Source of the DNA: a virus
Reading direction: 5' to 3' (one strand)
Virus record (IMG/VR): IMGVR_UViG_3300017605_000093
Span: 1-42,333 of that record
Length of the DNA: 42,333 nucleotides
A program made the position numbers and the translations under genes. The notes beneath the pieces are model-generated. The model was not told the DNA's origin and did not search any database. It saw only the letters and a list, made by a program, of their open reading frames with translations. The first letter of the stretch is position 1, and every line of letters begins with the position of its first letter. Of this stretch, positions 6,550 through 41,013 are shown in pieces.

Positions 6550-6669
6550 CCGCGTTCTCCTGTTAGTAGTACACCACTCTGGAATTGAATTCTGCTTTGG
6601 ACTGAAGAAAACTACACCCAATGCATGGAGAGTAAAGACAGTTCGGAGCGAAGCGAAGGACCGGGACGA

Positions 6670-6683
6670 CCCCCCAACCCCCC
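6670..6683 (-). other. Paired G6 runs on the minus strand
   Basis: The minus strand reads GGGGGGTTGGGGGG. Two adjacent six-G runs could form a quadruplex or slipped structure. The tract lies about 120 bp upstream of the methyltransferase start in the transcribed direction. Confidence 0.5.
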
Positions 6684-6718
6684 ACGCGTGATTGCACATC
6701 GCGTAGTTGGTTTAAGGT

Positions 6719-6730
6719 CCCGGATATCCG
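6719..6730. repeat. Perfect 12-bp palindrome
   Basis: CCGGATATCCGG is its own reverse complement. It lies next to the GTCCCGG arm of a longer inverted pair. It may be a protein-binding site; no direct evidence. Confidence 0.45.
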
Positions 6731-6874
6731 GTTATCGTGGCGGACTTTGATGCCCTCCGTGTCGATACTGCTGACACGGCCCCCTATCAGTGGCCCACGA
6801 AGAGCCCGCCACCGCCGCGCATGGGTTGCATGGTCCCCATTGCTGGGGGCGGCTGTCAGGCGCCAGACGTGGAA

Positions 6875-7031
6875 AAGCCCCTAGAACGTTTGCGGCGGGG
6901 CGTGACCCTGGCGTGGGCGATCTCGGCAGTTTGGGTGATCTCAGGAAGACCACTGCTTTCGACAACACACGCCCCTGCGCAAAAACTCTAGGGGCTTCGT
7001 TCCTGAGATCACCCGTCATGCCAAGGTCGCC
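6875..7031. repeat. Interleaved inverted repeats A-B-A'-B'
   Basis: A (6875-6894) pairs with A' (6978-6997) at 17 of 20 positions. B (6916-6947) pairs with B' (7000-7031) at 26 of 32, including 15 perfect pairs (6933-6947 with 7000-7014, core GGGTGATCTCAGGAA). Because the arms alternate, the two stems cannot form as simple nested hairpins: they are mutually exclusive or pseudoknotted. A switch, attenuator, recombination site or replication origin would fit. Confidence 0.75.
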
Positions 7032-7067
7032 AAACCTGACACGATCATCCTAGCACATTCTTGCGCA

Positions 7068-7397
7068 TCAGTTCAAGCTCTTCGCCCGCGCTTCCTGGTA
7101 GTGCTCGACGCTGCAGAAGCCCTGCCCCATCCACCCTTGATTCGATGGCCGGCCACAGAAGCACGTCGGCATTGGGTTGGCCTGGTTGGCATCGAACCAG
7201 GCTTGAGCCTCCTTGCCGTAGGGCGCGTCAGGGTCTGGAAGCAGCCCGGGGCCGGCCAGCGTGTTCACGATCCATTGCAGCGCGGCTTCGGCGCCCTTGC
7301 CGTGCTTCCACTCGACCAGCACGGACTGCATCACCACAAGCAGGTCGTGAAGATTTTCGGTGATCAGCTTCATGTGCTCGCGGTCTTTGTCGGTCAT
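7068..7397 (-). CDS. Hypothetical protein with C-terminal Cys/His motif, 109 aa
   Basis: AAGGAG 8 nt upstream selects the ATG at 7397 (MTDKDREHMK). The first 60 residues are helical (LITENLHDLLVVMQSVLVEW), and the C-terminus has CFCGRP followed by GFCSVEHY (about residues 80-103), a probable zinc-binding unit. Function unknown. It ends just before the non-coding island, so the leftward transcript runs into the interleaved repeats. Confidence 0.6.
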   Translation of the reverse strand: MTDKDREHMKLITENLHDLLVVMQSVLVEWKHGKGAEAALQWIVNTLAGPGLLPDPDAPYGKEAQAWFDANQANPMPTCFCGRPSNQGWMGQGFCSVEHYQEARAKSLN

Positions 7398-16643: not shown

Positions 16644-16729
16644 GGGCGGCTGTAGCTCAGTCTGGGAGAGCAAGCGGGCTGTAATGAACCCCTGCTGTGC
16701 GATGGTTCAAATCCATCCAGCGCCCACCA
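16644..16729 (+). tRNA. tRNA-Tyr(GTA)-like gene with abnormal acceptor and anticodon arms
   Basis: Normal parts: D stem GCTC/GAGC (16655-16658, 16668-16671), T arm GATGG-TTCAAAT-CCATC (16701-16717), encoded CCA (16727-16729). Abnormal parts: the acceptor pairs as eight base pairs with one bulged G on the 5' side. The anticodon stem (16673-16678 with 16691-16696) encloses a 12-nt loop, CTGTAATGAACC, instead of 7 nt. The first seven loop bases, CTGTAAT, are a perfect tyrosine anticodon loop with U33 and GTA, as if GAACC had been inserted. It may be a pseudogene, an unusual functional tRNA, or a decoy. Confidence 0.55.
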
Positions 16730-17040
16730 AACAAAAGAACTGATGGGTGGCGTGTGCGCCTCCCTGAACGGCTGGCCTGGCAGTCAGGAAACGTAGCATG
16801 ATCGAGTAGGAGCATGCGAGACGGGAATGCCGGTGAACAGTGGGGCACATGGCAGGCCGGAAAGACGGCCAAGATTTCTTCGCTGTGACAGCCGCGCAAG
16901 TGGCGAGAGGGACGAATCCGGCGCAACCCGTCACTGGAGTATGCCGGCGCAAATTGCATGGCGGTAAACGCGGAGTGAGAAAGCCTGGGTCCAGAAGGCA
17001 ACAGAACGGCTTGACAGCTCGGAGAGACGGCACAGAATTC
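16730..17040 (+). other. Structured non-coding spacer between tRNAs
   Basis: There is no supportable protein gene. Inverted repeats are frequent: GGCCTG/CAGGCC (16774-16779 with 16853-16858), GCATG/CATGC around 16796-16817, GTGAC/GTCAC (16885-16889 with 16930-16934). A direct repeat CCGGCGCAA occurs near 16918 and 16943. It may be degenerate tRNA material or a precursor RNA scaffold. Confidence 0.35.
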
Positions 17041-17114
17041 GCGGGCTTGGCCGAGCGGTCAGGCAGCGCCCTTCCAAGGCGCCTAGTTCGGTTCGATTCC
17101 GAAAGCTCGCTCCA
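17041..17114 (+). tRNA. tRNA-Gly(TCC)
   Basis: A canonical 74-nt cloverleaf: acceptor GCGGGCT/AGCTCGC (one G-U), D stem GCC/GGC, anticodon stem GCGCC/GGCGC with loop CTTCCAA (anticodon TCC, reading GGA/GGG), T arm TTCGG-TTCGATT-CCGAA, and encoded CCA. Its regular structure contrasts with the two neighbouring tRNAs. Confidence 0.9.
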
Positions 17115-17206
17115 GAGTCAGGGAGCGCTGACGCAATGACATGCGTTTGCGCCTGAAGAGCGGCAACCTGCGGGTGGCACGAGGGCTAGTCTTTCGTGTC
17201 CGTAAG

Positions 17207-17306
17207 GGGCCGGTGCAAGCGGGTATCGAGGCGTCATCCTCGCTGCTGCGGCTGCGGAGCATGGGGATTCCATCCCATGTGGCACGGTGCAATCCCGTGA
17301 CCTGCC
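17207..17306 (+). pseudogene. Possible tRNA remnant
   Basis: A good T arm (CACGG-TGCAATC-CCGTG, 17283-17299) follows a 6-bp hairpin CATGGG-8 nt-CCCATG (17260-17279) placed like an anticodon or variable arm. A 5' segment GGCCGGT near 17207 could pair at 6 of 7 positions with ACCTGCC (17300-17306). No CCA and no proper D arm are seen. The last bases would overlap the next tRNA. Confidence 0.3.
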
Positions 17307-17379
17307 GCGTTAGCTCAGTTGGTAGAGCACCGTCCTTGTAGCTCGGTGGTCCAGGGTTCGAATCCTTGACGCGGCACCA
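17304..17379 (+). tRNA. tRNA-Thr(TGT) with weakened anticodon stem
   Basis: Acceptor GCCGCGT/ACGCGGC, D stem GCTC/GAGC, T arm CAGGG-TTCGAAT-CCTTG and CCA are all intact over a standard 76 nt. The anticodon stem CCGTC/CTCGG pairs at only three of five positions: the two pairs next to the loop are T-T and C-C. With an extra A-T at the base, the effective loop is 11 nt (TCCTTGTAGCT) centred on TGT. It ends directly at the stop codon of the convergent Rz1 gene. Confidence 0.75.
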
Positions 17380-17640
17380 TCACCTAGGCCACGCCCGAAT
17401 GATCGCCAGGCCCTGGGCATCGCACAGCCACAGCGCAGCCTCTGCGCGCAGCAGCCGCTCTTCAGCTTGGCGCACGGTCAGATCGGCGGGCGGCGCCTCA
17501 AGGCTGCACGGCACCCACATCGGAGCCGGCAGGGACACCGGAGGCGTCACGGAGCTTGCGCAACCGGTCAGCCAGGCCAGGGAGCACCACATCGCGAATG
17601 TCAACGCCTTGCGGGCATTGCAGAGGATCGGCGGGAACAT
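17380..17640 (-). CDS. Outer-membrane spanin subunit Rz1 (lipoprotein), 86 aa
   Basis: The N-terminus has a basic region (NARKA), a hydrophobic core (LTFAMWCSLAW) and the lipobox LTGC, so the mature protein is a lipoprotein starting at Cys. The start of the mature part is Pro/Ser-rich, as in Rz1 proteins. The gene overlaps the 3' half of the Rz gene in a different frame, the classic Rz/Rz1 arrangement. With Rz it would fuse inner and outer membranes in the last step of lysis. Confidence 0.75.
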   Translation of the reverse strand: MFPPILCNARKALTFAMWCSLAWLTGCASSVTPPVSLPAPMWVPCSLEAPPADLTVRQAEERLLRAEAALWLCDAQGLAIIRAWPR

Positions 17641-17866
17641 GGATCACCTCGCGTAAGACTTTGGCAGAGTGGCCGGCCATCGCTGCGTATTGAGCTTCAG
17701 CAACCGATCGACTGACGTAGTTGCGGGCGATGAATTCCGTTTGGGCGCGAGACTGCTGCGCCCGCTCTGCGTCCCAATCAGCCTGCACCGACCTGCGACC
17801 CATCAAGGCGCCGCCAAGGAACGCGCCGACGATGACAGCGCCGGCCGTGATCTGGCCTGGGGTCAA
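17498..17866 (-). CDS. Inner-membrane spanin subunit Rz, 122 aa
   Basis: One N-terminal membrane span (AGAVIVGAFLGGALMG, about residues 8-23) is followed by a periplasmic charged helical domain (VQADWDAERAQQSRAQTEF...). Length and topology match Rz-type i-spanins. ATGA junction with the upstream gene; the Rz1 gene lies nested and overlapping its 3' part. Confidence 0.75.
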   Translation of the reverse strand: MTPGQITAGAVIVGAFLGGALMGRRSVQADWDAERAQQSRAQTEFIARNYVSRSVAEAQYAAMAGHSAKVLREVIHVPADPLQCPQGVDIRDVVLPGLADRLRKLRDASGVPAGSDVGAVQP

Positions 17867-37975: not shown

Positions 37976-38584
37976 TCAGAATCCACCGCTCTTGTATAGG
38001 GCAGATCCATCCTTTGCCCAAATAATCACCGATGCGCCATCCTTCGGGGCCACCTTGAGTGCTACGTCAAGGCCTTTGGCATCGTAATCAACTCCAGGCA
38101 ATAGGATTTCACCATCCACGGTCACGCCGCCGATGTTGTGCCCGCTGCGGGCAGCCCAGGCCAGCGTGTCGATGCCGTTGCCGCAGCCGCTATCCAGCGC
38201 GCAAGCCACCTCGACGGCCTCACGCGCTGTCTTGCCGAGATACATGGCGGCCATGGCGAAGTCCCGGCCTGAGCCGATGGCGCAGCACCGATCCTCGAAC
38301 CGGGACGGGTAGGGCGTGCGATCGTACTGCGATGGCGTGCCGTCTGCCTCGATCACGAGGATTGGCTGCCAGTCATCCTTGTCGCGCTGCATCGGCGGGA
38401 AATCTGCCACCGCCCGGCCGGCGCGCACCCATTCGATCATCTGCATGATCATGGACCGCGTCCCAGAGCCAGCAACAAGCAGATCGCCGATACGGAAAAC
38501 CTTCGTCACCGTGCGAATCATGCTGCCGTCTGAGCAGCGCTTGTCGGCAGCCAGGGTGCTGCCATCCCACGCAACGACGGTCAC
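37976..38584 (-). CDS. Proteasome beta/HslV-like Ntn-hydrolase, 202 aa
   Basis: With the GTG start at 38584 (GTGA overlap) the protein begins M-TVVAWDGSTLAADKR, so removal of Met exposes Thr as N-terminal nucleophile, as in HslV and proteasome beta subunits. D14 of LAADKR and K28 in VTKVFRIGDLLVAGSG correspond to the family's Asp17/Lys33 positions, and GSG-x-R fits the Gly after the second sheet. CCAIGSGRDFAMAAMYLGK (about 108-126) is the conserved central helix region. Predicted cytoplasmic peptidase forming rings. Located immediately before TerS, it could process head proteins or regulate host proteins; neither is shown. Confidence 0.8.
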   Translation of the reverse strand: MTVVAWDGSTLAADKRCSDGSMIRTVTKVFRIGDLLVAGSGTRSMIMQMIEWVRAGRAVADFPPMQRDKDDWQPILVIEADGTPSQYDRTPYPSRFEDRCCAIGSGRDFAMAAMYLGKTAREAVEVACALDSGCGNGIDTLAWAARSGHNIGGVTVDGEILLPGVDYDAKGLDVALKVAPKDGASVIIWAKDGSALYKSGGF

Positions 38585-39012
38585 GGCAGTTGCAACCTCT
38601 CCAGCGCGAAGCACATGTCATGGTGCGCCGCACGAATTCGCAGAGATTCTGCCTGGATGCGCTGCCCGAGGCCAGACGGTGCGGGCACCTCCGGATCAGC
38701 GGCCGGCGCGGGCTGCTGCGGCCCGAGCACTGGCTCAAGCCGGCTCAGCAGCATGCCAAGCATCTGCACAAGTCCATCCACCTCCATGCCGAGTGTTTGC
38801 ATCTGGCGCTGGATGTCGCGCACCGGCTCAGGCGCGGTGCCAATCGCTACGCCAAACTGGCATTGCCCGGCGCGCTGCTGCTCTTCCAGCATCCTGACTG
38901 CGGCGCCCTGGCCGATTGCGCCCCCGGCGATGTTGCAAGAAGCGGTGCGGGCCATGGCGGCTGCAGTGTCTGCCATGCGTTGCGCCACACCATAAGCGTC
39001 GCCGCTGCTCAT
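38581..39012 (-). CDS. Hypothetical protein, 143 aa
   Basis: Starts MSSGDAYGVAQRMADTAAAM; helical, with a central amphipathic segment (MQTLGMEVDGLVQMLGMLLS) and a Pro/Ala linker before a last helix (RIRAAHHDMCFALERLQLP). It lies between the H-NS-like and Ntn-hydrolase genes, joined by ATGA and GTGA overlaps, so the three are translated together. Possibly an oligomeric adaptor; no family recognised. Confidence 0.55.
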   Translation of the reverse strand: MSSGDAYGVAQRMADTAAAMARTASCNIAGGAIGQGAAVRMLEEQQRAGQCQFGVAIGTAPEPVRDIQRQMQTLGMEVDGLVQMLGMLLSRLEPVLGPQQPAPAADPEVPAPSGLGQRIQAESLRIRAAHHDMCFALERLQLP

Positions 39013-39392
39013 GCCGTCACCCTGAAGTCTTCGAGCTTGCGCCCGGCTGCGATGGCGGTGCTCAGCCACTTGGGCTGCAGTCCGCGCCCACTCCATGTGC
39101 CTTGCGGCTGCCCATCCGGGCCAATCGGACCAATGTACTTCATCGGGATCTTACGCCCGGCCAGCGGGTTGACACTGTTGCTGGCGCGCGGTGTCTTGGC
39201 GGTGCGGGCGCTCTTGCCGCGCGGGGCGCCCAGGTCTGAGAGCTTCACGCCGTGCTCGACCATCTGGGCCTTGATGGCAGTGATGATCTCGGCCTTCTCG
39301 GCGATGCGCGCGGCCTCGCACTGGGCGTCGATTTCTGCGGCCTGTTGCAGCAGAGCGGCTTTCTGCGCTGCGAGTTCTTGATACGTCGGCAT
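39009..39392 (-). CDS. H-NS-family nucleoid protein, 127 aa
   Basis: H-NS proteins bind AT-rich DNA and silence transcription. Residues 1-50 form a helical oligomerisation part (YQELAAQKAALLQQAAEIDA). The C-terminus has GPDGQPQGTWSGRGLQPKWL (about residues 92-111), the conserved H-NS DNA-binding motif with W-x-G-R-G-x-x-P-K-W. The start MPTYQEL is chosen by homology of its opening; an in-frame upstream extension is possible. A phage copy may counteract host silencing or regulate the late operon. A candidate extended -10 promoter lies just upstream. Confidence 0.8.
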   Translation of the reverse strand: MPTYQELAAQKAALLQQAAEIDAQCEAARIAEKAEIITAIKAQMVEHGVKLSDLGAPRGKSARTAKTPRASNSVNPLAGRKIPMKYIGPIGPDGQPQGTWSGRGLQPKWLSTAIAAGRKLEDFRVTA

Positions 39393-39433
39393 GAGTTTGT
39401 GAGATTGGTTGCGCAGCGGTTTGCTGCGTGCAG

Positions 39434-39442
39434 ATACTATCA
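39434..39442 (-). promoter_or_regulatory. Candidate extended -10 promoter before the H-NS-like gene
   Basis: The minus strand reads TGATAGTAT, i.e. TG-n-TAGTAT, about 42 nt before the H-NS-like ATG. A very similar TGATACTAT stands before the gene at 39688-39885. No strong -35 box is seen. Confidence 0.35.
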
Positions 39443-39679
39443 CTGATTCCGCTGCATCAACAGGCGGATTGTGTCACGCAGGCTTGCATTCTGCCTTGCA
39501 TAGTCCATGCGCTCGGCCTGCACGTTATCGAAGATCGCCTGTGCGGTGCGCATATGGTCGCGATCGTCCACCGTCACCTGTGGATGCAGGCACGCCAGCA
39601 GACTCAATGCCTCGTTCAGGCTCTGGATCTCTGCGGCGCACTGCCCGTGCGGATCTCCATCCGGCTCTTCGTCGAACAT
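39440..39679 (-). CDS. Hypothetical protein, 79 aa
   Basis: AAGGAG precedes the ATG at ideal spacing. Acidic start (MFDEEPDGDPHG), then helices (EIQSLNEALSLLACLHPQV) with coiled-coil potential to the end (ARQNASLRDTIRLLMQRNQ). Function unknown. Confidence 0.55.
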   Translation of the reverse strand: MFDEEPDGDPHGQCAAEIQSLNEALSLLACLHPQVTVDDRDHMRTAQAIFDNVQAERMDYARQNASLRDTIRLLMQRNQ

Positions 39680-39941: not shown

Positions 39942-40145
39942 TCAGATTGCAGCCAACCTGGTGGTATTAGCCCAGCTAAGTGAATTGCTTGGCGCATCCC
40001 ATGCGACCAGGCACCCGGGCGTATTGTCCGTTTCCGCCTCAACCACAACACCCGTGGCGCCGCGGTCAAAGAACGGCGCAGAGCCAGAGACGCAACGCAC
40101 GCGGTCTCCGACCTTGAGTGTGTACTCGTATGTTACTTGCGCCAT
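39942..40145 (-). CDS. Small SH3/KOW-like protein, 67 aa
   Basis: GGAGAAAG precedes MAQVTYEYTLKVGDRVRC. The pattern 'KVGDRVRCV....APFFDRGATGVVVEAE' is that of small beta-barrel (KOW/SH3-like) domains, which bind RNA or proteins. A related layout is seen in the 79-aa protein at 41736-41975. The gene follows the structured element at 40226-40378. Confidence 0.55.
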   Translation of the reverse strand: MAQVTYEYTLKVGDRVRCVSGSAPFFDRGATGVVVEAETDNTPGCLVAWDAPSNSLSWANTTRLAAI

Positions 40146-40203
40146 GATCTTTCTCCGGTTGCGTTGTCGATGGCTGATTATGCTTCGCGCAAGCCGCCGC
40201 GAC

Positions 40204-40222
40204 ATTGATATTAGCTATCAAT
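40204..40222. promoter_or_regulatory. Operator-like palindrome
   Basis: ATTGATA-TTAGC-TATCAAT: perfect 7-bp arms, 5-nt spacer. It has the same 7-5-7 architecture as the 9225-9243 repeat but another half-site. It lies 3 bp from the end of the structured RNA element and about 60 bp before the 39942-40145 gene. Confidence 0.55.
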
Positions 40223-40225
40223 GCA

Positions 40226-40378
40226 GGTGGTTTGTGGTGGCGGCAGGACTCGAAACCTGCTTGTCGCCCCTTTCCAGTAGCCCGCATGTGGGCATCAAAC
40301 CTGGCCAGCCGCCTACCATGGGGCTCTCGACTGGTTGGCTGTCGCGTTTCCATCAACGCCGCGCCACCACAAACCACC
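40226..40378 (-). ncRNA. tRNA-like structured element closed by a 17-bp helix
   Basis: The ends are a perfect 17-bp inverted repeat (40226-40242 with 40362-40378; minus strand 5' GGTGGTTTGTGGTGGCG). Read on the minus strand, the inner seven pairs GGTGGCG/CGCCACC act as an acceptor stem. A D-arm-like GCGT-TGATGGAA-ACGC follows, then helix CAGCC/GGCTG with ACCA/TGGT inside, then hairpin CCAG..GCCC-ACATGC-GGGC..CTGG, and finally a T arm GCAGG-TTTCGAGT-CCTGC. It is about 50 nt too long for a tRNA and has no normal anticodon arm. The bases after CGCCACC-A are CAA, not CCA. No such RNA is known to me. Confidence 0.6.
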
Positions 40379-40384
40379 CACATT

Positions 40385-40504
40385 CTAAGCCGGTGTGGGC
40401 GGGTGGCGCCTGCTAGTCACCATTCTCCCGCCCACCAGTTTTCCGGCGGCTATCTGGCAGATTCGTCGTCGGTCGCCATCCGCCGAGAAAGTTGCCGTGC
40501 TCAC
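40385..40504 (-). CDS. Possible small protein, 39 aa
   Basis: A GTG start in a GTGA junction with the preceding tiny frame; the frame reads MSTATFSADGDRRRICQIAA, then GKLVGGRMV, and ends just before the structured element. It contains a 9-bp hairpin (40395-40403 with 40427-40435). Coding status doubtful. Confidence 0.25.
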   Translation of the reverse strand: MSTATFSADGDRRRICQIAAGKLVGGRMVTSRRHPPTPA

Positions 40505-40581
40505 GCGTCGCGCCCTCGGAGCTTGCGTGCGACTGCAAGCGCCTGGGTGATGGTCGTGCGGCGCCCATCTGCCATGGGCAT
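40501..40581 (-). CDS. Possible micro-protein, 26 aa
   Basis: Reads MPMADGRRTTITQALAVARK and ends LRGRDA, a helical pattern that looks like protein rather than noise, but the ribosome binding site is weak. An overlapping 72-codon frame (40413-40631) is the alternative. Treat this 40379-40596 stretch as unresolved. Confidence 0.25.
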   Translation of the reverse strand: MPMADGRRTTITQALAVARKLRGRDA

Positions 40582-40596
40582 GTGATCAGTTGCCGG

Positions 40597-41013
40597 CTAC
40601 CATTCCGTCGCCATGTGCATCGCCCCGCCACGCGGCCCAGGAATCCAAATTAACCGCTGGTGCCCGATGAGCACCGAAGCCGTGGCCAGCGGCAGCACAG
40701 GCGCCCTGCGGTAGCCCGTGATCGCGCCGGCCGTCAGGTCGAGCGGGATGCCCAGCGGCTGCACGCGCCATGTCTGCGACAGGTGCGCCGACGTGCCGCC
40801 TTCCGAGTTGCGGAGGATGCCAGCCGTGAGCCCATCAGCGCTTCTTGCATACAGGCCGGGCGTCCAAGACCTGAACCCGCCTGCCGCATGCGCCGTGACG
40901 AGATTCAGGCCCACGATTTGCGCCTGGGCGCCCGGGCTCCAGAATGCAGCAGCCACCGCGGCGGCGCAGATGGCGGCAGCGATTGCCAATTCTCGCAGGG
41001 TGCGGCTGGTCAT
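40597..41013 (-). CDS. Exported protein of unknown function, 138 aa
   Basis: ATG at 41013 (ATGA overlap) gives MTSRTLRELAIAAAICAAAV, then AAAFWSPGAQAQ: a Sec signal peptide with A-Q-A cleavage. The mature 107 residues show alternating beta strands with many Gly, Ser, Thr and aromatic residues (GGFRSWTPGLYARSADGLTA, PLDLTAGAITGYRR). This is reminiscent of a small outer-membrane or periplasmic beta barrel. It may modify the envelope or exclude other phages (inference). Confidence 0.6.
   Translation of the reverse strand: MTSRTLRELAIAAAICAAAVAAAFWSPGAQAQIVGLNLVTAHAAGGFRSWTPGLYARSADGLTAGILRNSEGGTSAHLSQTWRVQPLGIPLDLTAGAITGYRRAPVLPLATASVLIGHQRLIWIPGPRGGAMHMATEW

Follow-up and report, generated by a model that had tools for sequence, protein, structure and literature searches.

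A discrete insert with a perfect terminal RNA helix in an untranslated gap of a phage genome: a possible IVS-like RNase III processing element

The segment at positions 40226–40378 of the window, i.e. of the complete 42,333-nt viral stretch analyzed here (IMG/VR record IMGVR_UViG_3300017605_000093), is a structured, discrete insert with one probable relative elsewhere, and a previously proposed likeness to tRNA is rejected. The account we favor, tentatively and at slightly less than an even chance, is that the element would be an mRNA-borne, RNase III-type processing insert working like the intervening sequences (IVS) of 23S rRNA, with the helix as its functional part and an expendable interior.

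The window is a phage whose P22-type head genes (portal, coat, large and small terminase) lie on the minus strand and whose closest named matches, for the large terminase only, are Burkholderia and Pseudomonas phages. The gap that harbors the element is bounded by the minus-strand genes 40597–41013 and 39942–40145. The element occupies the stretch 75–240 nt ahead of the next gene's start, and the ribosome-binding site of that gene is outside the helix. On the same strand, the small terminase gene lies ~2.3 kb downstream of the element. An intrinsic terminator (stem followed by a U-tract) was not found on the minus strand between 37400 and 42333, nor was a promoter-like site near the element. 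Other genes of the window include one similar to the HslV/proteasome family and to a peptidase PHROG (37976–38614, minus strand), which adjoins the small terminase gene, and an H-NS-like gene at 39009–39443. Searches with the neighboring proteins yielded two syntenic relatives, L099 (IMGVR_UViG_3300035121_000009) and L101 (IMGVR_UViG_3300006854_000010, also cited as G002), and the comparison set consists of these three related phages. The features of the site are as follows:

40597–41013, minus strand: upstream gene, 138 aa, unassigned function, 65% identical in L099
40441–40596, minus strand: conserved non-coding stretch upstream of hairpin H1; blocks of 37 and 33 nt are invariant in the three phages
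40386–40440, minus strand: neighboring hairpin H1, GGTGGGCGGG..CCCGCCCACACC, directly upstream of the element
40220–40384, minus strand: whole element as RNA, 165 nt, a 23-bp terminal helix closing a 119-nt interior (helix score 55.0; MFE z −5.8)
40362–40384, minus strand: 5′ arm (RNA sense), AATGTGGGTGGTTTGTGGTGGCG, including the TTTGTGGTG common to the G002 element
40243–40361, minus strand: variable interior, 119 nt, containing the hairpins that had been taken for D and T arms (z −0.91), with no similarity to the G002 interior
40220–40242, minus strand: 3′ arm (RNA sense), CGCCACCACAAACCACCTGCATT
40226–40378, minus strand: segment absent from both syntenic relatives in the alignment with L099 and L101, with TG at each edge
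40203–40223, minus strand: palindrome with an 8-bp stem and a 5-nt loop, CATTGATA-gctaa-TATCAATG, overlapping the outermost pairs of the element
39942–40145, minus strand: downstream gene, 67 aa, from an ATG after GGAG, with weak SH3_12 similarity below the Pfam cut-off

The original prediction described a 153-nt segment closed by a perfect 17-bp helix, and this was recovered exactly: the inverted arms GGTGGTTTGTGGTGGCG/CGCCACCACAAACCACC lie at 40226–40242 and 40362–40378, 119 nt apart. With G-U pairs allowed in RNA of the minus strand, the helix grows to 23 bp (40220–40384; 21 Watson-Crick and two G-U pairs, zero mismatches) and scores 55.0, as compared to a best score of 48 among 60 shuffled windows. 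Read from the plus strand, the same stretch scores 46, the two G-U pairs turning into A-C mismatches. When the whole window was shuffled 100 times (first-order Markov), the longest perfect arm measured 16 nt and was seen once; the terminal helix is far above chance. Folding z-scores on the minus strand amounted to −5.1 (153 nt) and −5.8 (173 nt), and for the interior alone to −0.91, with 39 of 200 shuffles folding equally well. Thus, the significance of the fold resides in the terminal helix. When the window and G002 elements (the latter described below) are taken together, all five non-Watson-Crick pairs are G-U on the minus strand and none is A-C, a bias of n = 5 pairs that corresponds to ~1 in 32 (one-sided) and makes RNA of the minus strand—i.e., the strand of the flanking genes—the better-fitting molecule. 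The top three minus-strand helices of each genome comprise this element and two helices from one conserved non-coding region. In sum, a non-random, RNA-type structure in a non-coding gap of the late strand, as had been proposed, is borne out by a helix that beats its shuffles and by a gap between minus-strand genes.

On both sides of the element, the flanks match the window at 87–88% (L099) and 83–89% (L101) at the DNA level, and the element is missing in both relatives. These read ...GCTTA(G/C)TGCGCATCGATAGC..., and the window has GCTTAGAATGTG, the 153 nt and TGCATTGATAGC. Removal of the 153 nt and one flanking TG from the window leaves GCTTAGAATGTGCATTGATAGC, the counterparts being GCTTAGTGCGCATCGATAGC in L101 and GCTTACTGCGCATCGATAGC in L099. 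The TG dinucleotide at both edges is a possible 2-bp target duplication (chance expectation 1 in 16), and the collapsed target, AATGTGCATT, is itself palindromic. The presence/absence difference is clean at the borders of the arms, and since two relatives have homologous flanks without exactly this segment, the alignments indicate a discrete insert or cassette. Among three phages only, a gain in the window would be simpler than a loss in both relatives, and is not proven.

The same comparison separates the element from its surroundings. The 19-bp palindrome that had been reported to flank the element is indeed an inverted repeat, but actually an 8-bp hairpin with a 5-nt loop, and it also occurs, with one pair broken, in L099 and L101; as these lack the element, the palindrome belongs to the host site. 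All three phages have hairpin H1 in the same position, its arms differing yet remaining self-complementary (GGTGTGCAGAC/GTCTGCACACC and GGTGGCGGG/CCCGCCACC in the relatives). Given this retention of H1 with changed complementary arms, along with the invariant blocks upstream of it, the entire gap has the look of an RNA-level site. Behind the shared leader and the same ribosome-binding site, the window carries the SH3-like 67-aa gene (39942–40145, minus strand) and both relatives an unrelated 65-aa-type gene (L099 6438–6635), which points to a gene swap at the conserved leader.

An inverted-arm scan of G002 returned a look-alike at 17603–17754 with arms TTTGTGGTGCGCTC. As minus-strand RNA, it spans 174 nt (G002:17592–17765) and is closed by a 25-bp terminal helix of 22 Watson-Crick and three G-U pairs without mismatch (score 57.5; fold z −5.55), its interior alone being unstructured (z −0.22). 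The arms of the two elements have the motif TTTGTGGTG...CACCACAAA in common, with TTTGTGGTG as the longest common substring (9 nt; permutation p 0.013, composition kept). Their interiors are unrelated, the local alignment score being matched by 395 of 500 shuffles. Among the loci compared, TTTGTGG and CCACAAA occur within 300 nt of one another only in these two elements, and in 50 complete viral records the arm motif was restricted to G002 and one chance pair. The site of the G002 element is a non-coding region conserved on both sides (window 6577–6695 and 6814–7057), where the window is without the arm motif. We consider the two elements likely but not certain to be homologous, because the arms are G/T-rich and the relationship rests on the 9-mer; as a family, they are provisional, with two examples only. 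The refuting condition named earlier, a helix that compensatory changes do not uphold, could be examined on this one sequence pair only, in which many positions differ and both helices are fully paired. The kept property appears to be a mismatch-free 23–25-bp helix in RNA of the transcribed strand, with an interior that need not be kept. A MAFFT alignment of the two elements was not meaningful.

Elsewhere, a conserved non-coding region on the minus strand (window 6650–7080; G002:17856–18034, L109) carries a promoter-like TTGAAC-18-TAGGAT (TTGAGC-18-TAGGAT in G002). After it follow two interleaved ~30-nt inverted repeats (7031–7000/6947–6916 and 6998–6968/6904–6874), which are paired in G002 with changed arms and have no Rfam match. 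Their B1-A1-B2-A2 order is suggestive of hairpins that exclude one another or of an antisense-type phage RNA.

The element had been described as tRNA-like, with acceptor-, D- and T-arm parts, and this portion of the original prediction did not withstand scrutiny. An Rfam scan at E ≤ 10 over 40000–40600 on both strands gave no tRNA (RF00005) or tmRNA match, and the element, in an Rfam search of the kind proposed at the outset, matches no family. ARAGORN in default, intron and tmRNA modes called nothing at the element, and lowering its threshold to 50–60% produced scattered low-score calls only. What the element has in common with tRNA, tmRNA and phage tRNA-like RNAs is its terminal helix plus a hairpin whose loop bears TTCGA. 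However, the loop of this T-arm-like hairpin (GCAGG-TTTCGAGT-CCTGC) measures 8 nt, as opposed to the 7-nt T loop of the tRNA cloverleaf, such hairpins are expected by chance ~0.9 times per genome (both strands), and the arms are not kept in the G002 look-alike. Lacking covariance-model and default ARAGORN support, and with an interior at chance level, the element was rejected as a tRNA or tmRNA. The three Rfam tRNA matches of the window fall at 16.6–17.4 kb, away from the element. This small plus-strand cluster (16646–17380) comprises tRNA-Gly, tRNA-Thr and a weaker tRNA (16646–16725), with tRNA-like remnants between genes. Two further candidates were discarded. A DicF-like match in Rfam, on the opposite strand and at 22.4 bits where the gathering score is 48, was attributed to chance. 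The minus-strand ORF 40066–40383, which extends across the element, was not accepted as coding: neither Pfam nor PHROGs gave a match for it, the part matched in L099 by tblastn lies outside the element, and both relatives lack the segment.

Long mismatch-free helices are the kind of structure that RNase III cuts in bacteria. The IVSs of 23S rRNA are extra stems of 100–200 nt that are excised by this enzyme (PMC8708148); that of Coxiella has terminal repeats of 28 bp, and IVSs are usually inserted at the tips of helices (PMC4990558). The mRNAs of T7 and lambda are also cut by RNase III (PMC8708148, PMC5371410). As the element combines the build of a 23S IVS with the RNase III substrate type, we propose an mRNA-borne, IVS-like insert. 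It would reside as a discrete insert within the untranslated gap of the minus-strand (late) transcript and, on transcription, its ends would pair as a perfect helix some two turns in length. Host RNase III would then cut both strands of the helix. The upstream mRNA, with the 138-aa gene, would thereby be parted from the downstream mRNA, which runs from the 67-aa gene to the terminase, and the interior would be dropped as a short-lived RNA, as is the IVS of bacterial 23S rRNA. That the site is transcribed, that RNase III cleaves it and that the phage benefits are inferred here. Among the functions listed with the original prediction (decoy, regulator, processing guide or packaging signal), processing agrees with the IVS-like account.

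The parallel to the 23S rRNA IVS extends to size (an insert of 100–200 nt; here 165 nt with a 23-bp helix), a long terminal helix, a variable interior, a predicted RNase III substrate and a sporadic distribution among close relatives at a homologous site, the element being absent in L099 and L101. It differs in lying between phage protein genes, in an untranslated gap rather than at a 23S rRNA helix tip; in such an mRNA gap there is no rRNA continuity to preserve, and excision is without obvious need. We class the element as IVS-like in its working and not as an IVS, because a location in 23S rRNA defines that class. Like the RNase III stems of phage mRNAs (T7 R1.1, lambda sites), the element offers a roughly two-turn helix between genes on a phage transcript; in contrast, those are compact hairpins, whereas the element closes a 119-nt interior and is missing in close relatives. 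A literature search found no IVS-like element in phages among the papers available to it. A broader version of the proposal is possible though rather doubtful: a phage-specific family of movable 'helix cassettes' of ~150–175 nt, with TTTGTGGTG-bearing 23–25-bp helices and unrelated interiors, that would occupy various intergenic gaps in related phages and remodel operons through RNase III cutting.

Searches for further copies bear on the nature of the insert. The window contains one copy only. BLAST searches with the element returned short chance matches or none in phages, plasmids and E. coli genomes, and the exact 17-mer arm had 13 matches in viral contigs, none with the element and most in coding sequence or G/T repeats. 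A comparison of the large-terminase neighbors at 80 loci revealed no common gene order upstream, and an upstream-protein search of genome contigs found no relative. Two other structures came to light. An unrelated AT-rich phage contig (L054 3768–3920) has an intergenic 29-bp terminal helix over 153 nt, similar in build and with no common sequence noticed, and a terminase-related contig (L009 5161–5247) has a 25-bp near-perfect hairpin (CCCCCCCTTCCAATTTGACA...).

A rather unlikely alternative is a DNA element like a MITE (miniature inverted-repeat element), i.e. a non-autonomous element with 17–23-bp terminal inverted repeats that would be mobilized by a transposase in trans, the RNA helix being a by-product. 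It would account equally well for the empty sites and the common ends: the element is short and non-coding, its presence/absence polymorphism has clean borders at perfect arms with TG at both edges and a palindromic collapsed target, and a look-alike with a common end motif is found at another locus of a related phage. It does not account for the unrelated interiors, as MITE copies are normally alike throughout, or for the G-U pairs that favor one RNA strand. Furthermore, the arms have only 9 bp in common, the 2-bp duplication is weak, and no exact 14-nt-arm copy was present in 84,980 bacterial and archaeal genomes, the inverted 10-nt-arm pattern giving a single AT-rich chance match in viral contigs.

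We also regard it as unlikely that the helix stays intact as a cis-acting mRNA-leader element, be it a 5′ stabilizer against RNase E or exonucleases, an attenuator or a protein-binding site. The short distance to the next gene would suit such a role, as would the position beside H1, which the three phages retain with markedly different arms, and RNase III-trimmed hairpins can stabilize E. coli transcripts (PMC5371410). Against this, two relatives with the same surrounding leader lack the element, which is therefore not needed there, the minus strand of the region has no U-tract terminator, and the ribosome-binding site is not enclosed by the helix. A leader or stabilizer role and the IVS-like account are separable by experiment only.

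It is quite improbable that the element encodes a stable small RNA acting in trans (decoy, regulator or packaging RNA) with the interior as its business end. Phages do carry such RNAs, and the element has a discrete size and, on paper, a hairpin-rich interior; this interior, however, folds at chance level, as does that of the G002 look-alike, with which it has nothing in common, and there is neither an Rfam match nor a promoter-like site nearby. Most improbable is a DNA-level site for cruciform formation, replication, recombination or packaging. The inner 17 bp do form a perfect inverted repeat at the DNA level, and the small terminase gene lies downstream on the same strand, but the outer part of the helix is free of mismatches only when read as minus-strand RNA, and both relatives keep the neighboring genes without the element at this site.

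Together, the three phages offer a clean pair of filled and empty sites for testing gain versus loss. IVSs are best known in rRNA genes, where they are regarded as selfish passengers. If the element behaves like an IVS, the same type of passenger would live in phage mRNAs, where it could serve as a ready-made switch for processing between the two halves of an operon.
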